The notes beneath the pieces are model-generated. The model did not search any database. It worked only from the letters and a program-made list of their open reading frames with translations, and was not told the DNA's origin. DNA of 64,000 nucleotides from a virus. Each line of letters starts with the position of its first letter. Within the stretch, counting starts at the first letter, position 1. Shown here piece after piece: positions 34,856-59,769 of this stretch. The DNA lies in the IMG/VR virus record IMGVR_UViG_3300032164_000009, positions 1 to 64,000 of that record; one strand, 5' to 3'. Position numbers and translations under genes: made by a program.

Positions 34856-34890
34856 GAGCAGGAACCAAGTGCGACTTTGACACAACTCGA

Positions 34891-34990
34891 CCGGGCGACG
34901 TTCTGGCGTAATTAACCGGAGCGAAACCAGCGCAACTAAAGGCGATGTGGCAGCCACAGCTACATCGCCTTTTTTGTTGCGCTCGCCCGG
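34891..34990 (+). ncRNA. Nested-stem RNA element, copy 1
   Basis: Outer stem CCGGGCGA (34891-34898) with TCGCCCGG (34983-34990). Hairpin CGTTCTGG/CCGGAGCG follows the 5' strand (eight pairs, three of them G-T). Clamp stem GCGCAAC (34930-34936) with GTTGCGC (34976-34982). Inside the clamp: terminator hairpin GGCGATGT/ACATCGCC and six T. It lies 27 bases before the small gene at 35018. Copies at 50689 and 51100 keep the pairing with different bases. Confidence 0.75.
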
Positions 34991-35017
34991 AAACGAGATT
35001 TTGCAGGAGCTACGACG

Positions 35018-35086
35018 ATGGCGGGCGGGACAATCGCCCTGGTTTCGGCCGCCGCCGGGGCGGTCGCATCCTGGCTAGCGAAGTGA
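35018..35086 (+). CDS. 22-residue peptide downstream of the RNA element
   Basis: ATG with GCAGGAGCTACGACG upstream; the peptide MAGGTIALVSAAAGAVASWL then AK is a single hydrophobic helix. Short, but it has a proper ribosome site and fills the space between the RNA element and the next gene. Confidence 0.4.
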   Translation: MAGGTIALVSAAAGAVASWLAK

Positions 35087-35098
35087 AGGGCGTAACGC

Positions 35099-35431
35099 AT
35101 GAAAATCCTTCTCCAATCCCAAACCGGCGACGGCTACGACGTGATCGTCCAACAATCCGACGGGAGCACTCGCACACTACATTTTGCCACTTGCCCGAAG
35201 GACGTGCAGAAGTCGGTCGATGCCGCAACGGTTGATTGGAAGATCGTCGATCCGAACGACCCGCTTGTCATCGCTCAGGCCAAAAAGACAGCGGAGCTGG
35301 ACGCGGCGGCGGACGTTGTTCGCGGGGCATATCAAAGCGCGAAGGACGCGGTGGCGAAGGCGGTCACGGTGAAGGATGTTGAGGGTGTGGTTTCGCCCGT
35401 GACTGTGGCTGCAACGGCGGGGGTGAAGTAA
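35099..35431 (+). CDS. Hypothetical protein
   Basis: 110 residues. N-terminal beta-rich half (MKILLQSQTGDGYDVIVQQS), C-terminal Ala/Val-rich helix (AYQSAKDAVAKAVTVKD). Its stop overlaps the next ATG. Possibly a virion or fibre accessory, judged only by position. Confidence 0.7.
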   Translation: MKILLQSQTGDGYDVIVQQSDGSTRTLHFATCPKDVQKSVDAATVDWKIVDPNDPLVIAQAKKTAELDAAADVVRGAYQSAKDAVAKAVTVKDVEGVVSPVTVAATAGVK

Positions 35432-35745
35432 TGTCCCATCTAAGCCCTAGAGATCACCAGTGTATCAAGATTGCCAAGCAATACAGGCTCTATTGCCATT
35501 GTCTGCTCTGTGCCAACAACGGGGAAGAGACGCCAATCAAAGGTGATGTTGACAGCTTCGTAGCTGCCCGGGCCGCAGTGAGGACTGGCGTTGCCACCAT
35601 CCGTTGGCACGTCCCATGTGGGGAAAGCGACCCCGGGGCAGTCTACGACTTGAACACTGCCGAGGCGGTTCTGCGGGGTCTGATTCATCCGAACGCAGCG
35701 AAGGCTCACGGTGATGCTTACGCCTCCACTGCGGAGGTGAAGTAA
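35431..35745 (+). CDS. Cys/His-rich hypothetical protein
   Basis: 104 residues, overlapping the preceding stop by one base. YCHCLLCANNGEETPIKGD and WHVPCGESDP give four cysteines. The next gene starts immediately after its stop. Function unknown. Confidence 0.7.
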   Translation: MSHLSPRDHQCIKIAKQYRLYCHCLLCANNGEETPIKGDVDSFVAARAAVRTGVATIRWHVPCGESDPGAVYDLNTAEAVLRGLIHPNAAKAHGDAYASTAEVK

Positions 35746-38700
35746 ATGCCTACATGCACAACAAACGCCTCCGGGTTATGGTCGGCCGATGCCATTTGGT
35801 CAGTCACCGGGGCCGGCACGACGATGGGCGGGACCGATGGCGTGCTGGTTGATGGCACGTTGACGCCTACAGTTTCCCCGGTATGGACGGTATCTGCTCT
35901 GGTTGGACGGAGAATGAAATTAGGCAGTACCTGGTATTCCATTTCTGCCAACACTGCCACGGCGGCGACGATTACCAGTCCTCCCGCCAATGCCACATAC
36001 ACCTATCTGGTCGGCGGTCCCCCGATCGACAATGACGCGGTTGTTCTTGCCGCCCAATTTTCCATTACGATGGACGTGTCGCACTCGGGATGGACCAATG
36101 GAATGGCCGGGGTGGTTATAACGGGCCACGCCACAACTCCCGCGATGCTTGAATTCCATGCCGCAACGACTGGTTATCTATTACTGAAGACCGGGACGAC
36201 GTTATCGGGGACGACGGTCACGAATCGCGGCCGGCTCTGGGCAAGTTCTGTTGGGTTGTGGATCGCGCCGGCGGATCGGTCTGGCGCGGCGAGTGCGGTT
36301 AGCGCGGGCGGGGTTTTCACCCCCGGCACCGCTCCAGCGTGGGGAGCGGGAAGCCTGGTCGGATCGTCGATCACGATAGCGGCGGGCACCTACGTTATCC
36401 TCACTCACGACGCCACGAGCGTGCTGACGTGGACCGGCACTGTTCCCTCGGAGAACGCCACGGCGGGGGCATGGACGCTGAACGTGTTGCCGCTCCCGTT
36501 TGCCGATAAGGCGACGTTGGAATTCGCGGGTACGGCGGGCACTGCGAAGCTCCTCGCGAGCGACCTCGACATCGCTCTGTACTGCACGCAGCCGACGCTC
36601 GGGTCCGTGCGGACCTACGGCACGACCTTTTCGTTTACGACAAATTATGCGGTCGATAACAACCTCACGACCCCCGTGGCTCACGGTTGGGCGACTAACG
36701 GAAACAAACCCGTCCGAGTTTCGACTTCGGGTACGCTTCCTGCTGGGCTGACGGCAGGGACGCAGTATTATGTCCGCACGGTGGGATCGACAACGACTCT
36801 ATTGCTGTCAACAACGGCCTCGGATGTTGGGCTCGTAACGCTCACCGGCAACGGCACGGGCACGCATTACATTACCGAGGGGAGAATCAACGTCAGCAGT
36901 ATCGCCACCAACACGATCACCCTGGCCGCCACTCACGGATGGGCGAACGCCACGGCGATCATGTTCACGTCGAGCGGTACATACCCTACCGGCATCGTCG
37001 CCAATACGATGTACTGGGTCATCGGGGCCAGCGGTGCCACGTTGCAGTTGGCTGCTTATTCCGGCGGAACGGCGTTGACGCTAGGCACGTCATGGACCGG
37101 CACCCTGGAAGCCTACATTGGTGGGGCAACCGCAAACGCTACAGCCGTATTAGCCGTGCTGGATGATGTATTCACCGCTGAACCAACGTGGGTGACGACG
37201 GCTGGACACAACCGCGTGGTCTTGGCCGATGCGGGGCCGGCTGATTATGACCAGCAACGGTTGACGTTGGCGACGATTACGGCGACCACGATTACACTTT
37301 CGGCTAACGTGCTTTTGGCTAAATACCCGAATGCTCGAATTTATCTGGTCGCCCGCAACATCCTCATCAAGAGCAACACGACTGCCGCGACCAATATCAT
37401 CGACTGGGTGTCCTCGACGTTCACGGGGTCGGTGTTGCAGTGTGAGATTTGGTCGGCCGCAGGAGCTGGAGTTGGCGTTACTACGTTCTACGGCTATGGC
37501 ACCGGGGCCGGCACGTCGCACACGATCTCGGGCACGATCAGCGGGTGCAGCAGCGGCGTCAACGCCGGCACGTCGCACACGATCTCGGGCACGATCAGCG
37601 GGTGCAGCAGCGGCATCCGCGACAGCACGTCGAACACGTTATCCGGCACGATCAGCGGGTGCACCTACGGCGTCAGCTACGGCACGTCGCACACGGTCTC
37701 TGGCACGATCAGCGGGTGCACCTACGGCATCCGCGACAGCACGTCGAACACGTTATCCGGCACGATCAGCGGGTGCAACAACGGCACCAACGCCGGCACG
37801 TCGCACACGGTCTCTGGCACGATCAGCGGGTGCTACAACGGCATCAGCGCCGGCACGTCGCACACGGTCTCTGGCACGATCAGCGGGTGCAACAACGGCA
37901 TCAGCGGCGGCACGTCGCACACGATCTCCGGCACGATCAGCGGGTGCAGCTACGGCATCTACGCCGGCACTGGCTGCCTCAAGGGCTGCCAGTTCACCGG
38001 CAACACACAGGACATTTACCTCAACGGCGGTTGCTGGGAGGGTTGGGGCGCTGGGCTGCGGTCAACGACGCAAGTTGCCTATTACAAGCACTCCGATCTA
38101 GCCGTGGCCGACCTTCCGATCTACGTTGGAATCACGGACATCTGCGACGCGGCCGGCGCAATTCAGCTCGGCTACGTCGGCTGGTGGTGCCCTGGAGGCT
38201 ATACGAAGACGACGGCCTGGGTTTCTGGCACGCATGGTACACCGCCGATTACGCTTGCCGCTGTCCACGTCTCGACCGCCGAAGACTCCGACCGGGATTT
38301 CTGGGTCGAATTCCCGATTCTCGGCAAGTCGGGCTCCCCGATCACGGTCACGGTCTACCACAAGACCCACAACTACGTGTTTACCGTTACGGCCGCCACC
38401 GCTGCCGTAGGGGACACGTACACAAACAACGGTCAGACGTTTACGGTGTTTGCCGCAATAGCAGGCGGCACGACGTTATTGATGGCGGGCACAGGGGCTC
38501 CCGCTGCGAGTGGAAACTTGGTAAGAGTTACCGGCTCTGGTACAAATCCTATTGTATTTTCTGCTGCTTACTTAGCTTGGACGACGGCCCCGCTGATTGA
38601 GATTTGCGATCCGAACAAGGCGTGGAAGGCCAGCGGCGAAGTGCTTGCCTCCAGTTCGGCGTTCTCCGTGGCCGATACCGATTGGCACACCGACACGGCC

Positions 38701-39243
38701 ACCTACACGCCGACCTACGACCGACCGATAACGGTGCGCGTGCGGGGGTGCGGTGGTGTAGCTGCGGGGAGTGGCACGGGGCAAATGTATTGGTGGCAGG
38801 TGATAGAGGTCGGCATGGTTCCTGGGGCTACGACCGGCCCAGCGGTGTTGCTCAAGACGACTGGGGCCGCCGCTCGTGGTGGGTCGGGGACGTGTGCCAA
38901 GTTGACGCCGACTTCGGCGATCAATTATGGCTACTGGGATTTCTACATTCCCGTTACCGCCGCCGGGACCACGATGACGTTCTACTGGGCGAAGTCCGCT
39001 GCCGGGTTTGACGGCCTGCTGAAAGTCTCGGTGTGGGACAGCGACGATCCGTTCAACGCTACACCCGGACTGATCGCAAGCGAAGCTGTGGACATCACGG
39101 CGGCCGACACCACCTACCACGCGGCGGCGATTGATTTTGCCGCCCCAGCGGCGGATGGACTCTGCCGAGTGCGAATCGAATTGAAGGACGGGGCGACTTC
39201 GGGCTTCCTTTACATCGACGATGTTTCTGTGGTTTTGACATGA
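35746..39243 (+). CDS. Large tail fibre/spike-like protein with beta-solenoid repeats
   Basis: 1165 residues. Residues about 589-740 carry eight tandem 19-residue units of the type GTSHTISGTISGCSSGVNA, which predict a right-handed beta-helix. Upstream are beta-rich Thr/Gly/Ala domains (ATTITLSANVLLAKYPNARI style), downstream a jelly-roll-like C-terminal half (RITVRVRGCGG; DGLCRVRIELKDGA). Ser/Thr/Gly richness and absence of enzymatic motifs fit a receptor-binding fibre. Coupled to the next gene by ATGA. Confidence 0.85.
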   Translation: MPTCTTNASGLWSADAIWSVTGAGTTMGGTDGVLVDGTLTPTVSPVWTVSALVGRRMKLGSTWYSISANTATAATITSPPANATYTYLVGGPPIDNDAVVLAAQFSITMDVSHSGWTNGMAGVVITGHATTPAMLEFHAATTGYLLLKTGTTLSGTTVTNRGRLWASSVGLWIAPADRSGAASAVSAGGVFTPGTAPAWGAGSLVGSSITIAAGTYVILTHDATSVLTWTGTVPSENATAGAWTLNVLPLPFADKATLEFAGTAGTAKLLASDLDIALYCTQPTLGSVRTYGTTFSFTTNYAVDNNLTTPVAHGWATNGNKPVRVSTSGTLPAGLTAGTQYYVRTVGSTTTLLLSTTASDVGLVTLTGNGTGTHYITEGRINVSSIATNTITLAATHGWANATAIMFTSSGTYPTGIVANTMYWVIGASGATLQLAAYSGGTALTLGTSWTGTLEAYIGGATANATAVLAVLDDVFTAEPTWVTTAGHNRVVLADAGPADYDQQRLTLATITATTITLSANVLLAKYPNARIYLVARNILIKSNTTAATNIIDWVSSTFTGSVLQCEIWSAAGAGVGVTTFYGYGTGAGTSHTISGTISGCSSGVNAGTSHTISGTISGCSSGIRDSTSNTLSGTISGCTYGVSYGTSHTVSGTISGCTYGIRDSTSNTLSGTISGCNNGTNAGTSHTVSGTISGCYNGISAGTSHTVSGTISGCNNGISGGTSHTISGTISGCSYGIYAGTGCLKGCQFTGNTQDIYLNGGCWEGWGAGLRSTTQVAYYKHSDLAVADLPIYVGITDICDAAGAIQLGYVGWWCPGGYTKTTAWVSGTHGTPPITLAAVHVSTAEDSDRDFWVEFPILGKSGSPITVTVYHKTHNYVFTVTAATAAVGDTYTNNGQTFTVFAAIAGGTTLLMAGTGAPAASGNLVRVTGSGTNPIVFSAAYLAWTTAPLIEICDPNKAWKASGEVLASSSAFSVADTDWHTDTATYTPTYDRPITVRVRGCGGVAAGSGTGQMYWWQVIEVGMVPGATTGPAVLLKTTGAAARGGSGTCAKLTPTSAINYGYWDFYIPVTAAGTTMTFYWAKSAAGFDGLLKVSVWDSDDPFNATPGLIASEAVDITAADTTYHAAAIDFAAPAADGLCRVRIELKDGATSGFLYIDDVSVVLT
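37510..37965 (+). repeat. Eight tandem 57-base repeats (19 codons each)
   Basis: Units share GGCACGTCGCACACG and GGCACGATCAGCGGGTGC; two of the eight carry AGCACGTCGAACACG instead. Variable positions are concentrated in the last six codons, at loop sites of the predicted beta-helix. Confidence 0.9.
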
Positions 39244-40415
39244 GCCTAGGTACGCTGGACAACTGGGTATCCACGGCCATCGGCCCGCCGGTTATCGGTG
39301 AGACGATTGATCTGGATTCATGGGTGTCGAGTGCCATCAGCGCTGGACTGGTGGCGGTGAGTGGGGCCGCATCACTAATCGTTCAGAATTCGGCGTGTCT
39401 TGTCGAATCCGGAAACGTCGCACTCACCCAACATCAGGTCCTCGCAGTTCAGGCATCCAACTGCCTCATCACTTCGGGCAACGTCGTACTGGCTCAACAC
39501 TACGGGCCACTGACCGTTCAGGCCTCGGAGTGCGTAGTCGAGTCGGGCAATGTCGCCCTGGTTCAGCATCAAGCCATTGCCGTTCAGGCCTCGGAGTGCG
39601 TAGTCGAGTCGGGCAATGTCGCCCTGGTTCAGCATCAAGCGCTCGCTGTCGCGGGTGCGGAATCTGTTGTCGAATCGGAGAATGTCGGACTCATTCAGCA
39701 TCAGGTCTTGGCGGTTGGCGATGCGGACTCGGCCGTCGAATCCGGTGCTCCTGTCCTTGTGCAACACTACGGGCCGTTGAGCGTCGGGGGCTGCGAATGC
39801 CTTGTCGAGTCGGGCGGTGTCATCCTGACCCAGCACCAGACTCTTTCCGCCGACAATGCGGAATCCATCTGCGAATCGCAGGGTGTCGCCCTGACACAAC
39901 ACCAGGCGCTCGTCATCGGTGGCGCGGAAATCGTCGTCGCCTCCAGTGCCTGCGAGTTGACCCAACACCAGACGTTGAGCGTCGATGATTCGGCTGCTGT
40001 GGTCGAGTCAGAGAGTCCCGCCTTGACGCAGCATCAGGTTTTGGCAGCGACCGATTCAGAGTCGGTTATCGAGTCAGAGTCTCCGGCGCTCACGCAACAC
40101 CAGCTATTGGCGGTTGCTGATTCAGAATCCGGCGTCGAATCTGGCGAAGCGGCCCTGATCCAGCACCATGCGCTCGCGGTTCAGAATAGCGCGGTGGTTG
40201 TCGAGTCGGGCGACATTGCGCTCGTCTATCATCCAGTCTCTCTCAGCGTGCAGAATTGCCAGTGCGGCATAACTTCGGATTTAATCGCGCTGGTGCAGCA
40301 TCAATCGTTGACGGTTTCAGATGCGGACTGCCTCGTCACTTCAGGCAACGTCGTGCTTGGATTCGGCGGGCAAGGTATTGTGTTTCAACATCAATCACTT
40401 TTACTTGCGATTTAG
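39240..40415 (+). CDS. Repeat-rich structural protein with 22-residue QHQ units
   Basis: 391 residues, ATGA-coupled to the fibre gene. After a 50-residue head (LDNWVSTAIGPPVIGETIDL) there are about 15 units such as VQASECVVESGNVALVQHQA. The pattern (A/S)-x-x-C/S-x-V-x-S-x-x-x-x-L-x-Q-H resembles repeat proteins with H-x(n)-ADN-V-x-L motifs in phage virions. A fibrous, beta-structured shaft is likely. The last residues (GIVFQHQSLLLAI) are a degraded unit. Confidence 0.85.
   Translation: MSLGTLDNWVSTAIGPPVIGETIDLDSWVSSAISAGLVAVSGAASLIVQNSACLVESGNVALTQHQVLAVQASNCLITSGNVVLAQHYGPLTVQASECVVESGNVALVQHQAIAVQASECVVESGNVALVQHQALAVAGAESVVESENVGLIQHQVLAVGDADSAVESGAPVLVQHYGPLSVGGCECLVESGGVILTQHQTLSADNAESICESQGVALTQHQALVIGGAEIVVASSACELTQHQTLSVDDSAAVVESESPALTQHQVLAATDSESVIESESPALTQHQLLAVADSESGVESGEAALIQHHALAVQNSAVVVESGDIALVYHPVSLSVQNCQCGITSDLIALVQHQSLTVSDADCLVTSGNVVLGFGGQGIVFQHQSLLLAI
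39519..39650 (+). repeat. Near-exact 66-base tandem duplication
   Basis: Two neighbouring 22-codon units are identical over about 58 bases, while other units are only 40-60 percent alike. A recent duplication. Confidence 0.85.
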
Positions 40416-40424
40416 GAGTATACC

Positions 40425-40811
40425 ATGGCACAAGCACGATGGGCGACCGCTGACGTTCTGGACGATGGACTCGATGCGATGGATGCGGCGGTTGACGTAA
40501 TGATCGTCTGTTCGGGTGCAAGCCCGCCAGCAGACTATGCCGCCGCGGCGGCTGCGGCACTGGCGACGAAGACAAGTCCGACCCTGACTGTGGCGGCGTC
40601 GGGAACTGATCGTAAATGCACGATCAGCGAAGCCTTGGGCCTCACGATTGATGCCGGTGGGGATGCGACGCATATCGCCTTGGCGAAGTCAACCGCGACT
40701 ACCAAACTCTGGTTCGTCACGACCTGCACCCAACAGACGTTGGTTCTCGGCGGGACCGTCGATGTTCCCGAGTGGGTCATTACCGTCAAGCAGCCGACGG
40801 CCCCTGCGTAA
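40425..40811 (+). CDS. Small structural-type protein
   Basis: 128 residues; ATG after AGGAGTATACC. MAQARWATADVLDDGLDAMD then LVICSG-like and TSPTLTVAASGTDRKCTISE; beta-rich second half. I recognise similar proteins beside fibre genes in other phages, without a known function. Confidence 0.75.
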   Translation: MAQARWATADVLDDGLDAMDAAVDVMIVCSGASPPADYAAAAAAALATKTSPTLTVAASGTDRKCTISEALGLTIDAGGDATHIALAKSTATTKLWFVTTCTQQTLVLGGTVDVPEWVITVKQPTAPA

Positions 40812-40823
40812 CGGAGAGACGCC

Positions 40824-43136
40824 ATGCAGATCGTGGCTGGGACAACCGATATTTCGATTGCGATCTACGCCAGAGCGACGAGCGGGACGGCGCTGACCGG
40901 GAAAACGTCGGGCGATTTCGTCCTCACCTATCGCCGGGCCGGTGCGAACGTGCCGATCTCACTCTCGGACTTGGCGGAGTTGACGACGCCTCACGCCGAT
41001 GGGGGAATCAAGGAGGTGGGCAACGGGGAATATCGACTCGACTTGCCCGACGCCGCATGTGCGGCCGGGGCAAGCCAAGTCACCGTCGGGGGCACCGTTG
41101 ACGGCGGTGTAGTGATCGGGTATCCGGTTAGCCTAATTGGCGTGCTCCCGGCCGACGTGCAGAAATACCTCGGCGAGACGGCCCCGAGCCTCAAAAACGA
41201 CGCCTACCCCGCGATACTGGTGGAAGGTGGTCCGCCGACCAGCGGCTCTTGGACGATCACCTACAATGGCACCGAAACGACATCCGGCCTGAACTGGAAC
41301 GCCACCGCGGCCGAAGTTCAGACGGCCTTGCGTGCCCTGGCCTCGCTGACTCCCGACAAGGTGGCGGTGACCGGCGACACGTGGCCGGTGAATGGCGGGG
41401 TGTTCACACTGACCTATACGGACCTCGGCAGTGACCCGCCGGAAGTGACGATCAACAGCTATCTGACGGGCGGCGATCCGACGATCACACCGGACACGAC
41501 GCAAGAGTGGGTTGCTGCCATTGTAGGCCAGAAAGAGATCGTGGTTGTCAGTTCGGGTGGGGCGACGGAAGGGGCGTTCTGTCTAAACGGGTACGGTGCT
41601 TATCCGATTGGGTGGAATGCTAGCGCTAGTGAAGTGGCACAAGTCATTACAAACGTGTGCTGGCCGTCCAATACAGGTGAGGGTGGACCACTGGACGAGG
41701 GCGCCGTGACCGTCACGGCCTCTTATGACGGTGCCCAGGACGACACTTATGTCGTGACGAACAACACGACCGGTGTCAATCCCACCGTGACCGTTCAACA
41801 GCAGGGCATTACTGCCGCCGCCTTCACCCCTGAGGTCCAGACGATCACGCTCGGCTACTACACGCTGAACACGGCGATTCTCATTCTCCAAACCGTCGAG
41901 GCTCTCAGCCAGATTCTCACATCCGCCCGCGGCGGCTACATCGACAATCTCGCCGCCGGACCAGTGGCCCTTGCCTCGGTTTGGACGCCAACGATCGGCG
42001 CTTACTTGGACGCCGCGGTTTCGAGCAGAGCGGCCAAGACCGACTGGAGCACGACGCGCGGCGGCTACATCGACAATCTGAATGTCGGCGGGACGGTGCC
42101 GACGCTGGCACAATTCAACGCCCGTTCACTGCCGACCGCCGACTACGCGACGGCTGGCACGCAATCTCAGATTCTCGGAGCCATCAGCGCGAATGCCGCG
42201 AACAATGCCGGGATCGCACAGGCGCTCGAGGATATTGAGACTCTCGCGGGCGACGTGGCGGTGATCCCGACGCAACCGGCCCTGGCCAGCAACACGCCGA
42301 CGATGGGAGCCTTGGTCGCTCAATTTGGTTCCCCGATGCAGTCCACTTACAACGTGGCGACGGGAACTCAGGGTGCCTCGATTCTGACAGCTATCGGCAC
42401 GCCAGCGCAAGCCTCGGTTCTTGCCAATGCGAACACACATATCGGGCAGGTCAAAACGGTTGTAGATAGCATCGGGACTGTTGCGAATAAGCAGGACACG
42501 ACCCTAGAGGCCGACGGTGAGGATTGGAAGTTTACCGCGGCGGCCTTGATCGAATCGCCGGTTGGCACGGGTGGCTTCACGAGCGAAGATCGGACGCTGC
42601 TTGAGACGGCGGCAGAAGGCGGAACTGGCTTGACCGCCCAAGAGACGCGCGATGCCATGAAGCTCGCTCCATCAAGGGGGACGCCGGCCGCCGGGTCGCT
42701 TGACAAGCAGGTTGACGATATTCAAACCAAGACGGACTCAATAACGGCGGGCAAGGTCACCGTCTATTCTGTATTGACAGCAACCGGGGAGATCAAAACT
42801 CTTGTCGTCGGAGATGCTTTTGACGCCACCAATTCTCGGGCGATTCTATTCGTAGACGAGGGGGATGACTGGCCGACACTCTCCGGTACGGTTCATTTTT
42901 CAATCGCGAAAGTTGCCCCCAATGTCGCCGATAGCCTTGAATTGACCATCGCGGGAACAATTACGACTTCAGCCGGGCACGTCGCCGTGTTGGTCCCGCT
43001 AATCGGAACTGATACTTCCGGCCTGACATCCGGACAGCACGTCTATGATCTGCGACACAAACGGGCGGACGGGGAATGGGAAACGCTCGTGAGTAGAACG
43101 CATTGCGGGATCGTCTTGCCGGTGACGCCGACTTGA
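40824..43136 (+). CDS. Large baseplate/fibre-type protein with two giant-protein repeat units
   Basis: 770 residues; ATG after GGAGAGACGCC. Residues 1-110 form a domain (MQIVAGTTDISIAIYARATS) common at the front of phage appendage proteins. Residues about 130-340 hold two copies of the WNATAAEVQTALRAL-type unit of the protein at 3-5132. A long helical, Ala-rich central part follows, then a beta-rich end (GQHVYDLRHKRADGEWETLV). Structural role inferred. Confidence 0.82.
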   Translation: MQIVAGTTDISIAIYARATSGTALTGKTSGDFVLTYRRAGANVPISLSDLAELTTPHADGGIKEVGNGEYRLDLPDAACAAGASQVTVGGTVDGGVVIGYPVSLIGVLPADVQKYLGETAPSLKNDAYPAILVEGGPPTSGSWTITYNGTETTSGLNWNATAAEVQTALRALASLTPDKVAVTGDTWPVNGGVFTLTYTDLGSDPPEVTINSYLTGGDPTITPDTTQEWVAAIVGQKEIVVVSSGGATEGAFCLNGYGAYPIGWNASASEVAQVITNVCWPSNTGEGGPLDEGAVTVTASYDGAQDDTYVVTNNTTGVNPTVTVQQQGITAAAFTPEVQTITLGYYTLNTAILILQTVEALSQILTSARGGYIDNLAAGPVALASVWTPTIGAYLDAAVSSRAAKTDWSTTRGGYIDNLNVGGTVPTLAQFNARSLPTADYATAGTQSQILGAISANAANNAGIAQALEDIETLAGDVAVIPTQPALASNTPTMGALVAQFGSPMQSTYNVATGTQGASILTAIGTPAQASVLANANTHIGQVKTVVDSIGTVANKQDTTLEADGEDWKFTAAALIESPVGTGGFTSEDRTLLETAAEGGTGLTAQETRDAMKLAPSRGTPAAGSLDKQVDDIQTKTDSITAGKVTVYSVLTATGEIKTLVVGDAFDATNSRAILFVDEGDDWPTLSGTVHFSIAKVAPNVADSLELTIAGTITTSAGHVAVLVPLIGTDTSGLTSGQHVYDLRHKRADGEWETLVSRTHCGIVLPVTPT

Positions 43137-43181
43137 TTAGGACGGCGTCATGCGATTGACGCCGATAAGGGGGTGCAGACC

Positions 43182-43754: not shown

Positions 43755-43758
43755 GGCG

Positions 43759-44064: not shown

Positions 44065-44331
44065 GGTTGAGCGGTGGCCCCCCCAGCGGCGGGTCCTTCC
44101 AGGACGTTGGCGCGCCGGTAGGGCGGTGGGAACTCTCCCCCCAGTTTACTTACTTACTACCAGAGTGATCCACTGAGCGACCAGCACGAATATGACCGGG
44201 AACGCTCGCGCCGGAGACAGCAGGAATCGTCAACAAGCGGTCGAGATATCGGCCCCACGCCCCCGATTGCCGATGTTCGCCGTCGCAACCGATGCCGGCG
44301 GCTGGCCGTTTTCTGCACGACCTACAACCCG

Positions 44332-46278
44332 GTGGCGTTCTATTGGCATTGGAGCAATGAGCATCGCCGGGTGATTGCGGCTATCGAGCGGAGCGTCAAG
44401 GAGGGTTTGATTTTGGCGTTTGCGATGCCTAGGGGAAGCGGGAAAACGGCGATCTGCCGAATGGCGGTATTGTGGGCCGCGTCGTGGGGCCTGAGTTACT
44501 ACGTCTACCTGATCGGTGCGAATGAACCGGCCGCCTTAAAAAACCTCGAAGCCGTCAAGGGCTGGATGCGAGCCCTCCATCCCTACGTCGATGACTTTCC
44601 AGAGATTTCTTGTGCGGTGGTGAAGCTCGGCAAGATCGCGCAGCGCGCCGCTGGCCAGCTTCAGAACGGCCAGCCGACCGACATTGTTTGGGAGACGAAC
44701 CGAATCGTCCTGCCCCGTGTCCAGGCCCCGCCCAATCTTCCAAAATGCGATCAGCGACCCGATGGAATGGCCGCGAGTTCGCAGGTAGTTATTGCCGTAT
44801 CTGGTCTCACCGGGGAGGGCATCCGCGGCAGTTTATTTGCCGATTCGATTACAGGGGCCCTGCGGCGGCCAGACCTTATCCTGCTCGACGATCCGCAGAC
44901 CGATGAGTCGGCTAAATCGCTCCAACAGAATGCGGACCGCGAAGAGTTGATTGCGGGAGCCGTGCTCGGATTGGCTAATCCTGATAGACCGTCGGCCGTG
45001 GTGATGCCTTGCACGGTCATTCGGCGAGGCGATATGGTTGATCGGATTCTCGATCGAAAGCGCAACCCGACGTGGCGTGGAATCCGGACGGCTTTTTTCA
45101 AGTCCATGCCTACCGACAAGGCAGCGTGGGAAGCGTATGAAGCCGAGTACCGGGAGGCCCTGGGACAGGACGTACCGGATCGGGCCCGGCTGAACCGCTA
45201 CTACCGAGAGCATCGGGCGGAACTGGATAAGGGGGCCGAAGTCTCATGGATTCAGCGCAAGACGTGGGAAGTGTCGGGGGTTCAGCATGGGATGCACCTC
45301 TTTTTTCAGAAGCGCTCGACATTTTTTGCGGAGTACCAGAACGATCCGCAAGAAGAGCGGAGCCCCCATTCCGTTTTGACGGCTGCTATCGTAATGAGTA
45401 AGGCGGCTGGATTGCCGTGCGGTACTATGCCACTCAATTGCGAGCACGTCGCGGCTTATTGTGACGTTCACGGGCGAGTACTCTACTGGCTGGTATCGGC
45501 GTGGTCGCAAAATTTTGGCGGTGGAGTGATCGACTACGGCACCTGGCCGCGACAGAACCGTGCATACTTTTCCCAGGAGTCGGCCCCGGTCGTCTTGGAA
45601 GACATCTATCCCGGTTTAGTCGATGATGCCCGAATCACGGCTGGCCTTCAGGCCGTGGCAGACGTATTGCTGGCGCGAAAGTTCACTCGTGAAGATGGGG
45701 CGGAATTCAAGATTGGAAAACTTTTGTTTGATGCCAAGTGGGGCGAGAAAAATGCCCTGGTCAAAGCATTCTGTCGGCGGCACCCCGCCTATCCGGAAAT
45801 AGTTTTCCCCGCGCAGGGCTTAGGGATTGGGGCAAGCTCGAAGCCTTTCAATGAATACCGGCCGGAGCATGGGGCACGGATTGGCGAGCATTGGCGTATC
45901 CCGCCAGCAGTGAAGGGCGACCGTTGGGTGACCATTGACACGAATTGGTGGAAGAGTATCGCCGCGAGCCGGTTAGCGATGGCCATCGGCACGCCCGGCG
46001 GCTGGCAACTGTTCGGGCGAGACCCGCAAGAACACGAACTATTCGCGGACCATTGCATCGCTGAGGAGCCTGTCGAAACTACGGCAAAGGGCCGGACTGT
46101 TGACGAATGGAAGTGGAAACCGGGGCGGCCGGACAATCATTGGTGGGACTGTTTAGTGGGGTCTGCGGTGGCTGGGTCGATGCTTGGCGTGCCGATGGCC
46201 GGGGGGAAGGTACGGAAGGCCATAGCCGATCCGATGCAGCGACCTTCGGCGGCGGACGTGGCGAGAGGGGGAAAGTGA
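44332..46278 (+). CDS. terL: Terminase large subunit
   Basis: 648 residues from GTG 44332. Walker A PRGSGKT (33-39), Walker B LILLDDP near 185, and a C-terminal nuclease half (YCDVHGRVLYWLVSAWSQ; WDCLVG) identify a lambda GpA-like packaging ATPase/nuclease. The matching reading frame is open upstream to about 44122 and encodes plausible N-terminal sequence (SDPLSDQHEYDRERSRRRQQ; AVFCTTYNPVAF), yet contains no ATG, GTG or TTG. A GTG at 44074 would reach it only through the TAG at 44119. The true start is therefore unresolved. Confidence 0.92.
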   Translation: MAFYWHWSNEHRRVIAAIERSVKEGLILAFAMPRGSGKTAICRMAVLWAASWGLSYYVYLIGANEPAALKNLEAVKGWMRALHPYVDDFPEISCAVVKLGKIAQRAAGQLQNGQPTDIVWETNRIVLPRVQAPPNLPKCDQRPDGMAASSQVVIAVSGLTGEGIRGSLFADSITGALRRPDLILLDDPQTDESAKSLQQNADREELIAGAVLGLANPDRPSAVVMPCTVIRRGDMVDRILDRKRNPTWRGIRTAFFKSMPTDKAAWEAYEAEYREALGQDVPDRARLNRYYREHRAELDKGAEVSWIQRKTWEVSGVQHGMHLFFQKRSTFFAEYQNDPQEERSPHSVLTAAIVMSKAAGLPCGTMPLNCEHVAAYCDVHGRVLYWLVSAWSQNFGGGVIDYGTWPRQNRAYFSQESAPVVLEDIYPGLVDDARITAGLQAVADVLLARKFTREDGAEFKIGKLLFDAKWGEKNALVKAFCRRHPAYPEIVFPAQGLGIGASSKPFNEYRPEHGARIGEHWRIPPAVKGDRWVTIDTNWWKSIAASRLAMAIGTPGGWQLFGRDPQEHELFADHCIAEEPVETTAKGRTVDEWKWKPGRPDNHWWDCLVGSAVAGSMLGVPMAGGKVRKAIADPMQRPSAADVARGGK

Positions 46279-46300
46279 GTTGAAGAAAGGCGGTGAAGAA

Positions 46301-46771
46301 ATGGCGGGAGGCGAAACCGTGGTGATTGTTGGCGGTGGAGAGGCAATAGGTTGCTGCACGATCAGGCGAGAGAAGGTGAACTATGGCCCTTGCTCACTGT
46401 GCGAGCAGGACATCATCGGTGATCCGTTGACGGAAATGCCGTTTACCATTGGCTTCGCATCAGGTGAGCGGATCAAGATGCACCCCGCGTGCATCGACCG
46501 GGCGGCGATGATCCTACTCAGTATGGTTAAGGCACAAGTCAAGGCAGAGGGAGCGCAGACGGTCACGCCGCCGAAACGGAGGGCTTACCTCACAACCGGA
46601 ACTCTCCTCTACTACCACGATGATGGAAATGTGTACTGCCCTGGGTGCGGGGCGGTTATGGACGTGAAGAACACAGGTACGTTTATGCTGGTGCGGTGTG
46701 ATGCCTGCGATACCCGCGATAAGAAACCGGGGGTTGCGAAAGAGGCGGAAGGGGCAAGGGTGACCCGGTGA
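46301..46771 (+). CDS. Zinc-binding hypothetical protein
   Basis: 156 residues; ATG 46301 with AAGGCGGTGAAGAA upstream. CSLCEQDIIG and CPGCGAVMDVKN ... CDACDTRDKK form two zinc knuckles around a helical middle (SMVKAQVKAEGAQ). Its stop overlaps the next start. Unknown function. Confidence 0.72.
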   Translation: MAGGETVVIVGGGEAIGCCTIRREKVNYGPCSLCEQDIIGDPLTEMPFTIGFASGERIKMHPACIDRAAMILLSMVKAQVKAEGAQTVTPPKRRAYLTTGTLLYYHDDGNVYCPGCGAVMDVKNTGTFMLVRCDACDTRDKKPGVAKEAEGARVTR

Positions 46772-47670
46772 TTGTCAACATCGACACGCGAAATCACCCC
46801 TGTGCCGGCTATGTAGGCGACTACGTTATCCTTCTAAAGCTACTGGTCGAGGCGGCGGGGCATCAGGTGGGCAGTGCCGAGACAAGTAGTTGTCATGTTT
46901 TCATCGAAGGATTCGGTTCGGGCTTCGGTGACAAGATGAAGGCGATCAAGGGCCGGGGAGACGTGATCCTGGTGACCTCGGAGATCGTGACCGGCGGCAC
47001 GTTCAACGGCTTCCCCGACTACACCCACGCAACCGGCCAGAACTGGCAGAGGCGCTTCGATAACTTCAGGGCGTGTGCCAAACACGCCCGGGCGGTGTGG
47101 TGTGGCGTTGACGACCCGGAACAGATCGGGGCCTATCAGGCGATCGTTGACTGTCCGGTGATACCGCTGCCGTTCTTTTACTTCCCGGCGTATCCTCGAT
47201 TCGCCCACGTGCCAAACCAAAACGTCGATGTGTTTTTCTGGGGCCAGCACGTTCCGTATCGCGACAAGTTGATCTCGGGACTGAGGCATGATCTGAAGGG
47301 GTCCACCATTGAGTATCCATCGTTTATGCCCGGCAAGGAGCGGGACGAACTGGCGGCGCGGAGCAAGATCGCGCTGAACCTGAAGCAAAGCGCCCAGTGG
47401 GCTTATCCGTCAATCGTGCGGTATTGGTATCACCTCAGCAACGCTTCGTTCATCTTGGGCGAGGAATGCGAGAAGCGATGCAAGCTGAACGACTATGTGC
47501 TCGCGGTGCCTTCCGAGCAACTGGGCGAGACGTGCGTGGAACTGCTTGGCAGCGGTCGATGGAAGCGATTGGCGACTGACTCATACGAACGTTTTGCGGC
47601 CGAGTTGCCGGGCGGGCTGGCGGCGGAGGAATTGTTTGATCGGAGTTTCAGCGGAGTGCCCAAACTATGA
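46768..47670 (+). CDS. Glycosyltransferase-like protein (GT4-type C-terminal half)
   Basis: 300 residues from GTG 46768. The second half has the GT-B layout: VDVFFWGQHVPYRDKLISGL, then LAARSKIALNLKQSAQWAYP and NYVLAVPSEQLGE-like ends, reminiscent of the sugar-nucleotide side of family GT4. The N-terminal half begins like GT4 (CAGYVGDYVILLKLLVEAAG) but is short. It may glycosylate phage DNA, virion or host surface; no acceptor is evident. Confidence 0.7.
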   Translation: MIVNIDTRNHPCAGYVGDYVILLKLLVEAAGHQVGSAETSSCHVFIEGFGSGFGDKMKAIKGRGDVILVTSEIVTGGTFNGFPDYTHATGQNWQRRFDNFRACAKHARAVWCGVDDPEQIGAYQAIVDCPVIPLPFFYFPAYPRFAHVPNQNVDVFFWGQHVPYRDKLISGLRHDLKGSTIEYPSFMPGKERDELAARSKIALNLKQSAQWAYPSIVRYWYHLSNASFILGEECEKRCKLNDYVLAVPSEQLGETCVELLGSGRWKRLATDSYERFAAELPGGLAAEELFDRSFSGVPKL

Positions 47671-47930
47671 CAGAAACGGGAACGATCAAGACAGTGGAGG
47701 AGATTCTCGGTGAATCGCAAACGCCCGATGTGCTGAACCTATATCAGGCGATTGGAGACGCTGGTTTCGGTCTGGAGTTGAGCCCGGATCGGACCAACCC
47801 CAAACTCTGGTCCGGACACTTCTGGTTCGACGGGACGCCTCGCGTGATTGCGGCAGACACGCCCGCCGCAGTTATTATGAGGGTATCTCAAGCGATCATC
47901 GAAGGGCGATTAGTAAAGAAGAAGCCATGA
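47667..47930 (+). CDS. 87-residue hypothetical protein
   Basis: ATGA-coupled to the glycosyltransferase-like gene. Alpha-beta fold likely (LYQAIGDAGFGLELSPDRTN; HFWFDGTPRVIAADTPAAVI). No family recognised. Confidence 0.68.
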   Translation: MTETGTIKTVEEILGESQTPDVLNLYQAIGDAGFGLELSPDRTNPKLWSGHFWFDGTPRVIAADTPAAVIMRVSQAIIEGRLVKKKP

Positions 47931-48109
47931 AGTGTGAAATTTGCGGCGGGCGGTGTGTCCTTGATGCCCACACGGCGGATTGTACGGCGTGTGGTCAGCA
48001 CTATGAGCAGCCGGGATCATTTGTCTATCGGATTGTCCTGACCAATGAGCAGCGGGCCTTGCTCCAAAAGGCAGCGCGGCCGAGCGAAGCAAAGGAGATC
48101 AAGACATGA
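47927..48109 (+). CDS. 60-residue zinc-ribbon protein
   Basis: MKCEICGGRCVLDAHTADCT then ACGQHY gives C-x-x-C and C-x-x-C knuckles; the helical tail (TNEQRALLQKAARP) is basic. Overlaps genes on both sides by ATGA. Confidence 0.68.
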   Translation: MKCEICGGRCVLDAHTADCTACGQHYEQPGSFVYRIVLTNEQRALLQKAARPSEAKEIKT

Positions 48110-48567
48110 CAGACGGGCGAGAACCGGAGACTCCGATTGATCCAATAGAGAAGGCTTTCTTCAGGTGTATCAACTGCGGTCTTGAACGGTCCACGATTGA
48201 AGAGTTCACATATAGGTGGGACAGTACGCTTGGCACCCGGGATTGCCGAGAGCGTTTGGCCCAGGATGACGTGGGCGAATATCGTCCTTCGCCGTGCGGA
48301 GCGGAACCGGCTCATGTGATACTACTAGACGATTCCAATCCTTCTCGGTACTTAGTCGCCTTCATCGACTACCGACCCTTCACCATCAATACAGATGCGC
48401 TTGCAGTCAAGGGACTGCCAGAAATCGGTGCTAGTCGGAAGTCGGGAGGCGGAGTTGAACTGCTCAGTCTCCGTGCGCCTATACTCATTTCCCGCCAGAT
48501 GTCTGAAGTAAGGTGCTATTGGGAAAGCATAACAAGGAGCGCAACAAATTGTGCCCTGGGTAGGTGA
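48106..48567 (+). CDS. Cys-containing hypothetical protein
   Basis: 153 residues. CINCGLERSTIEEFTYRWDS and CRERLAQDD ... SPCGAEPAHV may bind metal. The C-terminal half (VAFIDYRPFTINTDALAVKG) is beta-rich. It ends just before the pentamer-repeat locus. Confidence 0.68.
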   Translation: MTDGREPETPIDPIEKAFFRCINCGLERSTIEEFTYRWDSTLGTRDCRERLAQDDVGEYRPSPCGAEPAHVILLDDSNPSRYLVAFIDYRPFTINTDALAVKGLPEIGASRKSGGGVELLSLRAPILISRQMSEVRCYWESITRSATNCALGR

Positions 48568-48655
48568 CTACGTGAATGATGCCGTCGCGGTTGGTTTTGC
48601 CGGGGCGGATCGAGGCGGTGTGTGAAGTGTTTCTAACCTAAAGGAGTGCAGTCTA

Positions 48656-49306
48656 ATGATGTACGAAGCGAAGTTTTCCCTGACCGGCGACATGCCCCTC
48701 ATTATGCACCAGGACGATGTTGAGGCGTCCGATACCTTAATGGCCTGGCGCAAGGCCCCCGAGAACAAAAACCTGAGCGTGGCTGGCGATGATCGCAGCC
48801 CGCCCTGGACGTGGCAGACCTACCTCTATTCGGACGGAGAGAACGTCACGATCCCCGCCCAAAATCTTATGGTTGCCATCCGGCAGGCCGGCACTCAGAT
48901 TATCCTGAAGAAACAGAAGACCTACAAGGAGATCAGCCAGAGTGGGTTGTTGATTCCGACTGAGTATCTGGACTTCAGCACGGCCGGGCGGAAGGTCGAG
49001 ATTGGCGAGATTGAGGCGGTGCGAGATTTGCCGTTTCAAGAGCAATCGGAGGCGGCCCGCAAACTCGGCTTTCGACTATTCATCAAGCGCGCCGTCATCG
49101 GCAAGGCCAAGCACGTTCGGGTCCGGCCCCGCTTCGATGTGTGGGAACTGGCTGGCACGATTCGCGTTTTGGTCCCTGAGATCACTTGGGACGTGCTTGG
49201 CAAGTTGTTTGAACTGGCCGGGCGGGTCGGGCTTTGCGACTGGCGGCCGGGGTGTAAGACGCCGGGGCCCTACGGGATGTTCACGGCGAAAGTGACAAAA
49301 TGCTAG
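48656..49306 (+). CDS. RAMP/Cas7-like protein next to the pentamer arrays
   Basis: 216 residues; ATG after CTAAAGGAGTGCAGTCTA. The order of motifs resembles RAMP-fold proteins by eye: an N-terminal strand plus MPLIMHQDDVEASD, a ligand-type IPAQNLMVAIRQAG (like the I-P-G-S-S-x-x-G-x-x-R of Cas7/Csm3), a KRAVIGKAKHVRVRPRF strand pair and a C-terminal glycine loop (GRVGLCDWRPGCKTPGPYGM). Related uncharacterised proteins occur in many phages. The first array begins at the base after its stop codon. RNA binding is an inference; no nuclease motif is seen. Confidence 0.85.
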   Translation: MMYEAKFSLTGDMPLIMHQDDVEASDTLMAWRKAPENKNLSVAGDDRSPPWTWQTYLYSDGENVTIPAQNLMVAIRQAGTQIILKKQKTYKEISQSGLLIPTEYLDFSTAGRKVEIGEIEAVRDLPFQEQSEAARKLGFRLFIKRAVIGKAKHVRVRPRFDVWELAGTIRVLVPEITWDVLGKLFELAGRVGLCDWRPGCKTPGPYGMFTAKVTKC

Positions 49307-49434
49307 GGTTCGGCATTGTTGGGTCAGGTACGGCCCGGTATGGCTCGGTAGAGCAAGGTCCGGTCTGGCAAGGCTGGGCACGGCCCGGCAGAGCGTGGTG
49401 AGGTAAGGTTCGGCGTGGCAAGGGCGCAGAGCGC
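49307..49434 (+). repeat. GGYNN pentamer array 1 (24 units) with hairpin
   Basis: Starts at the base after the upstream stop codon. 24 consecutive 5-base units from GGTTC to GGGCG with no insertion or deletion. It ends in GCGC-AGA-GCGC (49424-49434). The two AGCNN units follow units ending in AG. Confidence 0.93.
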
Positions 49435-49462
49435 AGGGAATAGGGAGAATTAAACCAATCTC

Positions 49463-49575
49463 GGCTCGGTAGGGCAAGGCGTGGCGTTGTCAGGCAAGGC
49501 ATGGTCGGGCTTGGTAGTGTGCGGCCGGGTCCGGCGCGGTCCGGTCGGGCGCGGCAAGGCGAGGGCGCAGAGCAC
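49463..49575 (+). repeat. GGYNN pentamer array 2 (21 units) with hairpin
   Basis: 21 units, 49463-49567, ending GGCGA-GGGCG, then GCGC-AGA-GCAC (one mismatched pair). The A-rich spacer GGAACGAGAAACGAAATAAG follows. Confidence 0.93.
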
Positions 49576-49600
49576 ACGGAACGAGAAACGAAATAAGTTA

Positions 49601-49748
49601 TGTACGGTGCGGTTCGGTCCGGCGTGGTCTGGCAGAGCACGGTGCGGTGCGGCCGGGTGGGGTTCGGCACGGCAGAGCCTGGTGAGGTCCGGCAAGCCTC
49701 GGCTGAGCTAGGCATGGCCGGGCCAGGCAAGGCAAGGGCACAGAGTGC
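49601..49748 (+). repeat. GGYNN pentamer array 3 (28 units) with hairpin
   Basis: 28 units, 49601-49740, beginning with the variant TGTAC and ending GGCAA-GGGCA, then GCAC-AGA-GTGC (49738-49748). Longest array. Confidence 0.93.
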
Positions 49749-49775
49749 AAGGAGCGGAGAAAACGAAACAACTAT

Positions 49776-49898
49776 GGTTCGGTACGGTTCGGCCTGGCTG
49801 GCCTCGGCATGGCATGGTGGGGTCCGGTTCGGTAGGGTCCGGCTTGGCAGAGCAAGGCGCGGCACGGCACGGCAAGGCGGGGCGAGGGTGCAGAGCAC
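49776..49898 (+). repeat. GGYNN pentamer array 4 (23 units) with hairpin
   Basis: 23 units, 49776-49890, ending GGCGA-GGGTG, then GTGC-AGA-GCAC (49888-49898). The spacer after it is nearly the same as that after array 2. Confidence 0.93.
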
Positions 49899-49924
49899 AC
49901 GGAACGAGAAACCAAATAAGCTAA

Positions 49925-50027
49925 GGTCGGGCAGGGCTTGGTCCGGCTTGGTCCGGCAAGGTTAGGCATGGCATGGTCGAGCGCGGTGCGGCGCGGCAGA
50001 GCATGGTTTGGCGAGGGTACTGAGTAC
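49925..50027 (+). repeat. GGYNN pentamer array 5 (19 units) with hairpin
   Basis: 19 units, 49925-50019, ending GGCGA-GGGTA, then GTAC-TGA-GTAC (50017-50027). The loop is TGA instead of AGA. The next gene starts 30 bases on. Confidence 0.93.
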
Positions 50028-50056
50028 AAAACTTTAACCAGTGCAGAGGAGTGAAA

Positions 50057-50551
50057 ATGTTCAAGTCAGATTCGGAAAGCAGAGCGGCGGGCGAGCGACT
50101 TTGGCGGACGTTCGGCGACAAGTCGCGGGGCGAGACGATCACTTGGTCGAACCTTGAGGCGGTCATGGGCCGGACCCGGATTGAACCGGGCGGTTGGCAT
50201 ATCATCCGGCGTTTTCGTAAGCGGCTTCTCCGAGAGCGCCGGATTGTCACGCTTCCGGCCGATACCGTGGGCTTGCGCTTGTTGACTCACCAGGAGACAG
50301 CCCGAGAGGTGCCGGCGTTGCGACAACGGCGGGCATATCGACAGATCAACCGATGCCTAAAGGAAACCGCAACCGTCGATGGAACCGGCTTGACGGATCA
50401 CGAGCGGAAGGTACTGGCGGTGCAACGGCACAATCTCGCCTTTCAGCGGCTTCAGATCGGGCGGTCGCGCCGGCAGTTGGTGCAGGGGACGAAGAAAACC
50501 GAGGTCAATCCGTTACGGAAAGAGAAGGCCGCCGAATTAGTGGGAGCATAA
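50057..50551 (+). CDS. Small basic protein with possible winged helix, between arrays 5 and 6
   Basis: 164 residues; ATG 50057 after GCAGAGGAGTGAAA. N-terminal half LWRTFGDKSRGETITWSNLE then HIIRRFRKRLLRERRIV is a probable winged helix. The C-terminal half is basic and helical (LRQRRAYRQINRCLKETATV; LAVQRHNLAFQRLQIGRSRR). I recall similar proteins in unrelated phages. Position between arrays suggests it acts with them or with their RNA. Confidence 0.8.
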   Translation: MFKSDSESRAAGERLWRTFGDKSRGETITWSNLEAVMGRTRIEPGGWHIIRRFRKRLLRERRIVTLPADTVGLRLLTHQETAREVPALRQRRAYRQINRCLKETATVDGTGLTDHERKVLAVQRHNLAFQRLQIGRSRRQLVQGTKKTEVNPLRKEKAAELVGA

Positions 50552-50560
50552 CTGCGATTG

Positions 50561-50663
50561 GGCTGGGCAAGGCTAGGCGCGGCAGGGCCCGGCTTGGCAG
50601 AGCGTGGCAGGGTTCGGCGGGGCCGGGTGCGGTTCGGCTACGCATGGCAAGGGGACTGAGTCC
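50561..50663 (+). repeat. GGYNN pentamer array 6 (19 units) with hairpin
   Basis: 19 units, 50561-50655, ending GGCAA-GGGGA, then GGAC-TGA-GTCC (50653-50663). It is separated from the other five by the 50057 gene and is followed 25 bases later by the second nested-stem RNA element. Confidence 0.93.
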
Positions 50664-50688
50664 ATGGTGACTTGATATTGAAAACAAT

Positions 50689-50797
50689 CTGACCAGCAAC
50701 ACACCTGGGGTCCGCGAGCCCTGGGACCGTGGGGCGTAACGGAGCGGCGCGTCGGAGCCGACACCGACGCGCCGTTTTTGTTGCGCCTGCTGGTCGG
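50689..50797 (+). ncRNA. Nested-stem RNA element, copy 2
   Basis: Outer stem CTGACCAGCA (50689-50698) with TGCTGGTCGG (50788-50797). Clamp GGCGTAAC (50733-50740) with GTTGCGCC (50780-50787). Terminator hairpin CGGCGCGTCGG (50745-50755) with CCGACGCGCCG (50764-50774), then five T. The outer stem differs completely in sequence from copies 1 and 3. The next gene starts 17 bases after it. Confidence 0.78.
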
Positions 50798-50813
50798 TCT
50801 TGAGAAACGAAAC

Positions 50814-51062
50814 ATGAAACCCGAAGACCGCCCATCGGCGAGCGAAGTGGCAGGCCCGGCTCAGCGGGGCATCCGCTGCCCGGAGTGCCATGCCGCCGGG
50901 GAGTGGTCCGTCAATTACGGTCGCCACATTCCAGGGGGCTATCGGCGGGTACGGGTTTGCCGCAAGTGCGGCCACCGAACAGTCACGCTTGAGCGGCTCG
51001 CGGGGGATCGGTCCACCGGTGGAACTTCCCCGCCGGTAAGCGGTGATTCGGCATTGGAATGA
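50814..51062 (+). CDS. NrdR-type zinc-ribbon protein
   Basis: 82 residues. CPECHAAGEWSVNYGRHIPG then YRRVRVCRKCGHRTVTLE matches the zinc ribbon of NrdR repressors (C-P-x-C ... R-x-R-x-C-x-x-C-x-x-R-x-x-T-x-E), but the ATP-cone domain is missing. Small zinc-ribbon proteins of this type occur in many phages. DNA or RNA binding is likely; the target is unknown. Confidence 0.75.
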   Translation: MKPEDRPSASEVAGPAQRGIRCPECHAAGEWSVNYGRHIPGGYRRVRVCRKCGHRTVTLERLAGDRSTGGTSPPVSGDSALE

Positions 51063-51099
51063 CCGGAGAGTAGCCCTATCCTGAAATAGACAACCCAAC

Positions 51100-51198
51100 C
51101 GGGCGACGCTCCGGGCCGATCCCCCAGAGCGAACCTAGCGCAGCACAAGGCTGTATGGAGCCATACCTCCATGCGGCCTTTTTTGTTGCGCTCGCCCG
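51100..51198 (+). ncRNA. Nested-stem RNA element, copy 3
   Basis: Outer stem CGGGCGA (51100-51106) with TCGCCCG (51192-51198). Hairpin CGCTC/GAGCG comes next. Clamp GCGCAGC with GTTGCGC (one G-T pair). Terminator stem AAGGCTGTATGGAG/CTCCATGCGGCCTT, about 14 pairs, then TTTT. It lies 24 bases before the gene at 51222. Confidence 0.76.
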
Positions 51199-59609: not shown

Positions 59610-59643
59610 CGCGGCCCGCGAGCCGCATGACCACAACTTGAAA

Positions 59644-59741: not shown

Positions 59742-59769
59742 GCCTTTTTGACAAGGGAGAAAGAAAACC

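Follow-up and report, generated by a model that had tools for sequence, protein, structure and literature searches.

A three-part terminator with a palindromic companion loop in phage leaders: a probable attenuator ahead of head, packaging and tail genes

Attenuator leaders carry an intrinsic terminator before a start codon, give the terminator's 5' strand an alternative partner and lie close to a promoter, and these traits recur, the last in some copies only, in the RNA element described here. It stands in four copies in positions 1 to 64,000 of IMG/VR virus record IMGVR_UViG_3300032164_000009 (this 64,000-nucleotide stretch is hereafter the window; the whole record has 67,003 bases and encodes terminase, a lambda-family portal and head protease/capsid genes), and each copy comprises an outer stem (P1, doubtful in the fourth copy), a side hairpin (P2) and a clamp helix (P3) around a terminator hairpin and its run of T. 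Unlike attenuator leaders, the element finds its alternative partner in the terminator's own loop, nested and self-complementary. The put RNA of phage HK022 is cis-acting, lies near promoters and consists of two hairpins that suppress downstream terminators, with no terminator of its own; the element resembles put, as we understand that system, in being phage-borne and in some copies near a promoter, but its own terminator hairpin and T-run set it apart from a two-hairpin design. The lambda nut sites, with their boxA-boxB pair, also come to mind, since in the element a hairpin likewise comes after a single-stranded 5' motif (ACAAY...), but ACAAY looks better explained as a transcription start; the boxA reading, like a reading of the palindromes as restriction sites, was considered and set aside.

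Attenuation is a known kind of control; we know of no earlier case in which a terminator's loop repeats the competing strand and a palindromic loop of kissing type precedes it. For the symmetric kissing loops L9.3 of OLE and L21a of GOLLD, one study infers pairing between molecules from tetranucleotide palindromes in which GGCC is replaced by GAUC or AGCU (PMC12286853). The P2 loop behaves alike in exchanging AAUU, AGCU, GAUC, GGCC and CGCG, whereas OLE and GOLLD are large non-coding RNAs and the element is an mRNA leader of about 110 nucleotides that holds a terminator. Rfam 15 gave no match at gathering in the window, and a search of eight loci at E≤5 returned only mir-194 (E 3.1, under the gathering score). 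We found no description of the element in the open literature, most subscription papers and a 2017 survey of 224 candidate RNAs lying outside that search, and by undescribed we mean absent from Rfam 15 and from the open literature searched; one candidate for a known counterpart is Rhodopirellula-1, listed without an Rfam accession as a possible cis-regulatory RNA in Planctomycetes and Proteobacteria (PMC2864571).

Four copies in the window and their relatives

A sequence-only reading of the window had reported three copies (34891-34990, 50689-50797 and 51100-51198) with a shared plan in which the T-run comes ahead of the clamp's 3' half, and folding bears this out, with minimum free energy z-scores of -9.0, -7.1 and -8.7 for copies 1, 2 and 3 and none of 200 shuffles as stable in any of them. 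Each reported copy (c1-c3) contains the exact string TTTTTGTTGCGC once, and the record has no other instance of it. An independent descriptor scan for hairpin, T-run, clamp and outer stem, run on the window and 18 further loci, ranked 50689-50797 first, 34891-34990 second and 51100-51198 within its top six rows; a simple terminator scan picked up the hairpin in copies 1 and 3 but not in copy 2. The count of three was nevertheless incomplete, as the descriptor scan also indicated (as 59656-59748) a fourth copy, c4, at about 59640-59747, where the stretch 59640-59765 folds with a z-score of -7.0. The ten-pair outer stem that had been ascribed to copy 2 is real, and the clamp's 5' strand, given there as GCGYAAC (opposite GTTGCGC), reads GCGCAGC in copy 3, with one G-U pair. 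Beyond what had been reported, we find the fourth copy, a palindromic P2 loop, a tripartite terminator, an ACAAY-type 5' end common to the copies and a putative promoter before copy 3. In the list below, X, X' and X'' are the terminator's 5' strand, a repeat of its partner within the loop and its 3' strand; R1 is a covariance model built from five close copies, namely c1, c3 and three pattern-found copies in other contigs.

34882-34990, + strand: copy 1 (c1), whole; R1 training member
34882-34886: c1 start motif ACAAC
34891-34897/34984-34990: c1 P1
34899-34906/34916-34923: c1 P2, with 9-nucleotide loop CG-TAATTA-A
34929-34936/34976-34983: c1 clamp
34938-34972: c1 terminator hairpin, with T-run 34970-34975
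50684-50797, + strand: copy 2 (c2), whole; found by R1, not in training
50689-50698/50788-50797: c2 P1
50700-50731: c2 P2, loop CCGCGA
50733-50740/50780-50787: c2 clamp
50751-50770: c2 terminator, X GTCGG, AG, X' CCGAC, X'' CCGACGC, with T-run 50775-50779
51090-51198, + strand: copy 3 (c3), whole; R1 training member
51100-51105/51193-51198: c3 P1
51107-51114/51124-51131: c3 P2, loop GCC-GATC-CC
51137-51144/51185-51192: c3 clamp
51147-51180: c3 terminator, X GTATGG, AG, X' CCATAC, X'' CTCCATG, with T-run 51179-51184
59632-59747, + strand: copy 4 (c4), new, whole; starts with ACAACTTG; outer stem doubtful
59644-59651/59671-59678: c4 P2, inner GGG-CGGCCA-CCC at 59659-59670
59683-59693: c4 clamp 5' strand, GGGCCGCAAAC
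59701-59706: c4 terminator X GTGCAG, then GG, X' CTGCAC and X'' TTGCAC
59729-59734: c4 T-run, followed by the clamp 3' half

Across a search space of 658 kb in 59 sources, R1 matched c2 (E 8.6e-6) and c4 (E 5.6e-5), both outside its training set, and beyond the window it matched L195, a contig of a Phycisphaerae metagenome-assembled genome (7e-20), L189 (4e-15), L154 (3e-9), L155 (3e-8), G006 (6e-6), L153 (6e-5), L196 (7e-5), L157 (1e-4) and G005 (4e-4). G004 reached only E 0.09 with R1 and 2e-5 with R2, a second covariance model made from 15 matches, which also found a second copy in L195 (E 1.6e-5). The genome searches with R2 covered ten further records and 392 genomes of the phylum of L195, called Planctomycetota here on the Phycisphaerae label of that contig; nine of the 392 had a match at E≤1e-5, eight of which fit the element and one of which (L217) is doubtful, as it adjoins an open reading frame (ORF) resembling a host gene and looks like an ordinary terminator. 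Related portal genes occur in 36 virus contigs, and eight of these carry the element, six of them matches at E≤1e-3 from the 34 contigs searched with R1 and the other two being contigs of training members. In two relatives, G002 and G003, the portal shares no more than 45% and 40% identity with that of the window, yet the element stands at the same place. The element is an undescribed RNA family that covaries strongly and accompanies head and packaging genes in phages of Planctomycetota, where phage gene control is, to our knowledge, little studied.

Other searches returned less. No blastn relatives of c1 or c2 appeared in 50,697 phage records; a single-protein query found no portal relatives in viral_contigs or genome_contigs, where a query with alignment A4 then succeeded; the window portal was below 30% identity to named phages among the matches listed; and the terminase of G004 had relatives in five records at about 22% identity. 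A first pattern scan gave at least 118 stretches that were mostly chance or protein-coding, and among its top 45 distinct rows, two window copies included, the full plan appeared only in L061, L064, L068, L076, L026 and L082 (L120 is identical in sequence to L082). L013/L152 and L114 were left out for showing no full plan by eye, with an R2 E-value of 0.017 for L152. Before counting we also dropped L158 and L159 as duplicates of L157 (equal R1 score and match length), L162 and L175 as lying on the same contigs as L148 and L149, and antisense model matches. A three-stem terminator of similar outline but unrelated sequence at L144:11700-11830, in phage contig G001 on the strand opposite its element (z -6.5, R2 E 0.049), was not counted.

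The covariance-model search for homologues with compensatory changes, on which the sequence-only reading had staked its case, found them. In an alignment of 21 copies, 93.0% of 688 cells are paired as against 70.2% after shuffling, 34 of 35 pairs show two-sided change, and the covariation score is 0.577 against 0.196 (0 of 500 shuffles as high), with slid controls at 37.2-43.5% paired; in a 15-copy alignment the share is 94.0% of 482 cells against 72.4%, and both sides have changed in 32 of the 35 pairs. Both alignments were fitted to the model and are hence biased towards structure, 15 of the 21 rows being among the R2 training. All four helices are individually supported by covariation. Among cells that are not Watson-Crick, G-U makes up 55%, as against 29% in column shuffles (maximum 32%, n=300), an enrichment that argues for selection at the RNA rather than the DNA level. 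Judged by these comparisons, selection acts on P1, P2, the clamp and the terminator as structures of the RNA, and covariation, position and orientation together uphold the earlier claim of a new structured RNA upstream of genes. Not every part is needed, since in two relatives that retain a minimal version (L153:4722-4808 and L157:4636-4721), with an ATG at the T-run or at most 1-2 bases off, P2 and the tripartite terminator are kept while the 3' strands of both clamp and outer stem are missing; clamp and outer stem are therefore usual but dispensable.

The P2 loop and the three-part terminator

Two features mark the copies beyond their fold. The central tetramer of the P2 loop is palindromic in 27 of 27 copies (GAUC 8, GGCC 8, AGCU 7, AAUU 3, CGCG 1), such that palindromes exchange only for other palindromes with no common core sequence, whereas among 312 background hairpins in the same contigs 36% have any palindromic tetramer and 13% a central one. 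Close relatives typically read NN-UAAUUA-N, NN-UAGCUA-N or NN-UGAUCA-N, some loops being shorter or differing in one flank, and loops elsewhere are CGGCCA, UGGCCA, UGGCCG and CCGCGA; the loop of G002, UAGCUA, was taken from alignment A7, the automatic fold having picked another loop. As the inner bases of the tetramer are adjacent, they are unable to pair with each other within one chain. The pattern matches that of known kissing loops, a self-complementary loop with covariation from palindrome to palindrome, the dimer itself being a prediction.

The terminator is tripartite, X-DG-X'-X'', in that X can pair either with X' in its own loop or with the 3' strand X''. As X and X' are complementary, X-DG-X' is self-complementary. 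X and X' form 5-7 contiguous Watson-Crick pairs in all 27 copies across a spacer of two or three nucleotides, usually DG, with a mean of 5.8 pairs, whereas shuffling the loops brings the mean down to 2.8, and no shuffle of 500 exceeds 3.3; pairing of this type occurs in 8 of the 312 background hairpins, from which element copies outside the window had not been masked. Both 27/27 counts are partly selected, because L211 (26.6 bits) and L206, the same as L195b (30.6 bits), were kept for showing both features. A less biased count is that 21 of 21 matches at E≤2e-8 show the P2 palindrome and X:X', effectively 21 of 22 because the source of L217, a would-be passer, had been left out. Predicted energies for 13 copies run from -2.6 to -6.3 kcal/mol for the X:X' hairpin and from -17.6 to -38.0 kcal/mol for the terminator, while an X-DG-X' homoduplex is predicted at -16.9 to -27.8 kcal/mol, a two-strand value not strictly comparable with hairpins.

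Conditional termination and its rivals

The position of the element speaks to its function. A GC-rich hairpin and T-run stand upstream of and co-directional with a gene, the T-run always pointing towards that gene in the copies counted, and the start codon lies on the same strand within about 40 nucleotides of the element, mostly 10-40 nucleotides behind it. Scored with simple self-made sigma70 weights in the 26 of 27 copies with upstream sequence, promoter-like sites reach a score of at least 7 before eight copies (c3, G002, G003, L189, L153, L157, L215 and L218), against 0.9% of random positions, and all eight place the -10 hexamer 8-11 nucleotides ahead of the modelled 5' end, a placement that predicts the ACAAY-type motif common to the copies as the start of transcription. 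The promoter of c3 scores 7.4, and 0.35% of random positions reach 7.3:

51054-51082, + strand: putative sigma70-like promoter of c3, TTGGAA 51054-51059, 17 nucleotides, TATCCT 51077-51082

Taken together, the comparative and positional evidence suggests that the element is probably an attenuator, a conditional intrinsic terminator that forms the 5' leader of late transcription units, chiefly those for head, packaging and tail, in phages and prophages of Planctomycetota. We infer that RNA polymerase would start at ACAAY and transcribe P2 and next X-DG-X'. Where X pairs with X'', the terminator would form and the RNA be released at the T-run; where X is held by X', possible in 27/27 copies and presumably in competition with X'', the terminator would be delayed or prevented and polymerase would read into the gene. 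The antagonist X:X' could be either a weak hairpin within one RNA or a stable duplex between two RNAs, and after read-through the clamp and outer stem would close behind the polymerase. Two leader RNAs might also meet through the palindromic P2 kissing loop and so bias the choice, which is the least certain step.

Several observations weigh against the attenuator. Eighteen of the 26 copies lack a convincing promoter, c1, c2 and c4 among them, and for want of one these three and the 15 others may be internal operon terminators. The X:X' hairpin, being weak beside the terminator, would alone have to act kinetically; in contrast to known attenuator leaders, no ribosome, tRNA or ligand sensor was recognised in the element, nor any factor. 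Four model matches moreover lack the special features, L217 (42.3 bits), L207 (27.6), L209 (27.7) and L210 (27.3), all dropped for having by eye neither P2 palindrome nor X:X', and L217 outscores several members. One rival reading takes all copies as plain operon terminators that end an upstream unit and lower downstream expression by a fixed amount without switching, which agrees with the strong hairpin and T-run and with upstream ORFs that stop 3-137 nucleotides ahead of most of ten copies read. A plain terminator, however, would have no use for a conserved P2 whose loop is palindromic or for X:X' pairing, the palindrome and the pairing both found in 27/27 copies, or for a close downstream start codon with, in some copies, a promoter before the element, and we consider this reading unlikely.

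That clamp and terminator form a long, nearly continuous helix would suit RNase III cutting in the read-through transcript, or protection of the mRNA 5' end, but L153 and L157 have no clamp, and such processing leaves the T-run, the promoter position and the self-complementary loops unexplained, making it a rather improbable account. The sequence-only reading had offered, next to an attenuator, a polymerase-modifying RNA like put, in which the read-through fold acts in cis and polymerase ignores later terminators, and had rested its argument on the 3' strands of clamp and outer stem, which come after the T-run. Promoter-proximal position in some copies, phage origin and a compact three-way fold are in its favour, but nothing we found speaks positively for it. 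What is conserved at the core is a terminator, and the stems that would form only after read-through are those missing in L153 and L157, so that a put-like role seems very unlikely. The attenuator half of that proposal is supported by covariation, position, orientation and the promoters in 8/26 copies, and the earlier interpretation is, overall, partly supported. A role at the DNA level, as a cruciform, in recombination or as inverted repeats bound by protein, could draw on the many inverted repeats and on antisense strands that also score weakly with the model; it is hard to credit given a constant T-run orientation in the copies counted, G-U enrichment and palindromes with no common core sequence.

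Within the attenuator reading, it is possible, although we hold it tentatively, that leaders count themselves: P2 loops would kiss, X-DG-X' would pair between RNAs, X'' would be freed and termination prevented. If so, read-through would increase the more often the promoter fires and the more phage genomes are present, which would set a protein-free threshold for late genes, and the element would regulate in cis as an mRNA leader able to gauge how abundant it is itself; we know of no such leader, and none turned up in our open-literature searches. The four window copies carry four different palindromes (UAAUUA, CGCG, GAUC and GGCC), which would fit each leader recognising its own kind and could also be a chance draw, and is suggestive only.

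Downstream genes and neighbouring features

Genes downstream of the element are mostly head, packaging or tail genes. In the window they are as follows:

35018-35086, + strand: 22-codon ORF directly after c1, with AGGAG 8 nucleotides before the ATG
from 35099: unmatched 110-amino-acid ORF after the 22-codon ORF
50814-51062, + strand: gene after c2, small NrdR-like zinc-ribbon protein (match under the Pfam cut-off)
51222-51419, + strand: gene after c3, 65-amino-acid small head-region gene, then the portal gene (51410-52948)
59770-60192, + strand: gene after c4, 140 amino acids, weakly similar to a family of major tail proteins (phrog_1407, E 0.0075)

By eye, the same small gene of 65-67 amino acids separates element and portal at c3, G002 and G003, and ORFs of 71-95 amino acids take its place in L215, L218, L219, L220 and L221. 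Portal genes also follow the element in L216 (scanned as L224:4423-5826), L223 and L227; L222 has terminase, element and portal in that order, and L226 has terminase before the element. Relatives thus placed beside terminase and portal genes are also found within Planctomycetota genomes. Terminase lies downstream in G004, G005 and L206, that of G005 being 82% identical to that of G004, whereas the gene downstream in G001 is head-protease-like; the 266-amino-acid protein downstream in G006 gave no match. Upstream of the element in G002, the ORF at L148:8265-10004 resembles by eye a zinc metallopeptidase, which we take it to be from its motif, and may be a host gene bordering a prophage.

Related phages carry a second, different leader-terminator (L165:371-505, L169:3034-3168, L170:4557-4691 and L196:4606-4740; also L190:11034 and L191:5629), with the motif ATACRTCGAGCC or near it, a GGGG..CCCC hairpin and a T-run. 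In L165, L169 and L170 an ATG comes directly after it, ahead of the portal gene, and in L165 and L169 the T-run is followed by GGCTCG, complementary to CGAGCC. The window itself also holds G-rich arrays with a 5-base period, GG[CT]NN, in blocks at 49300-50010 and 50550-50657, and two of the blocks have a conserved sequence at their end (49533-49607 and 49856-49930, 80% alike).

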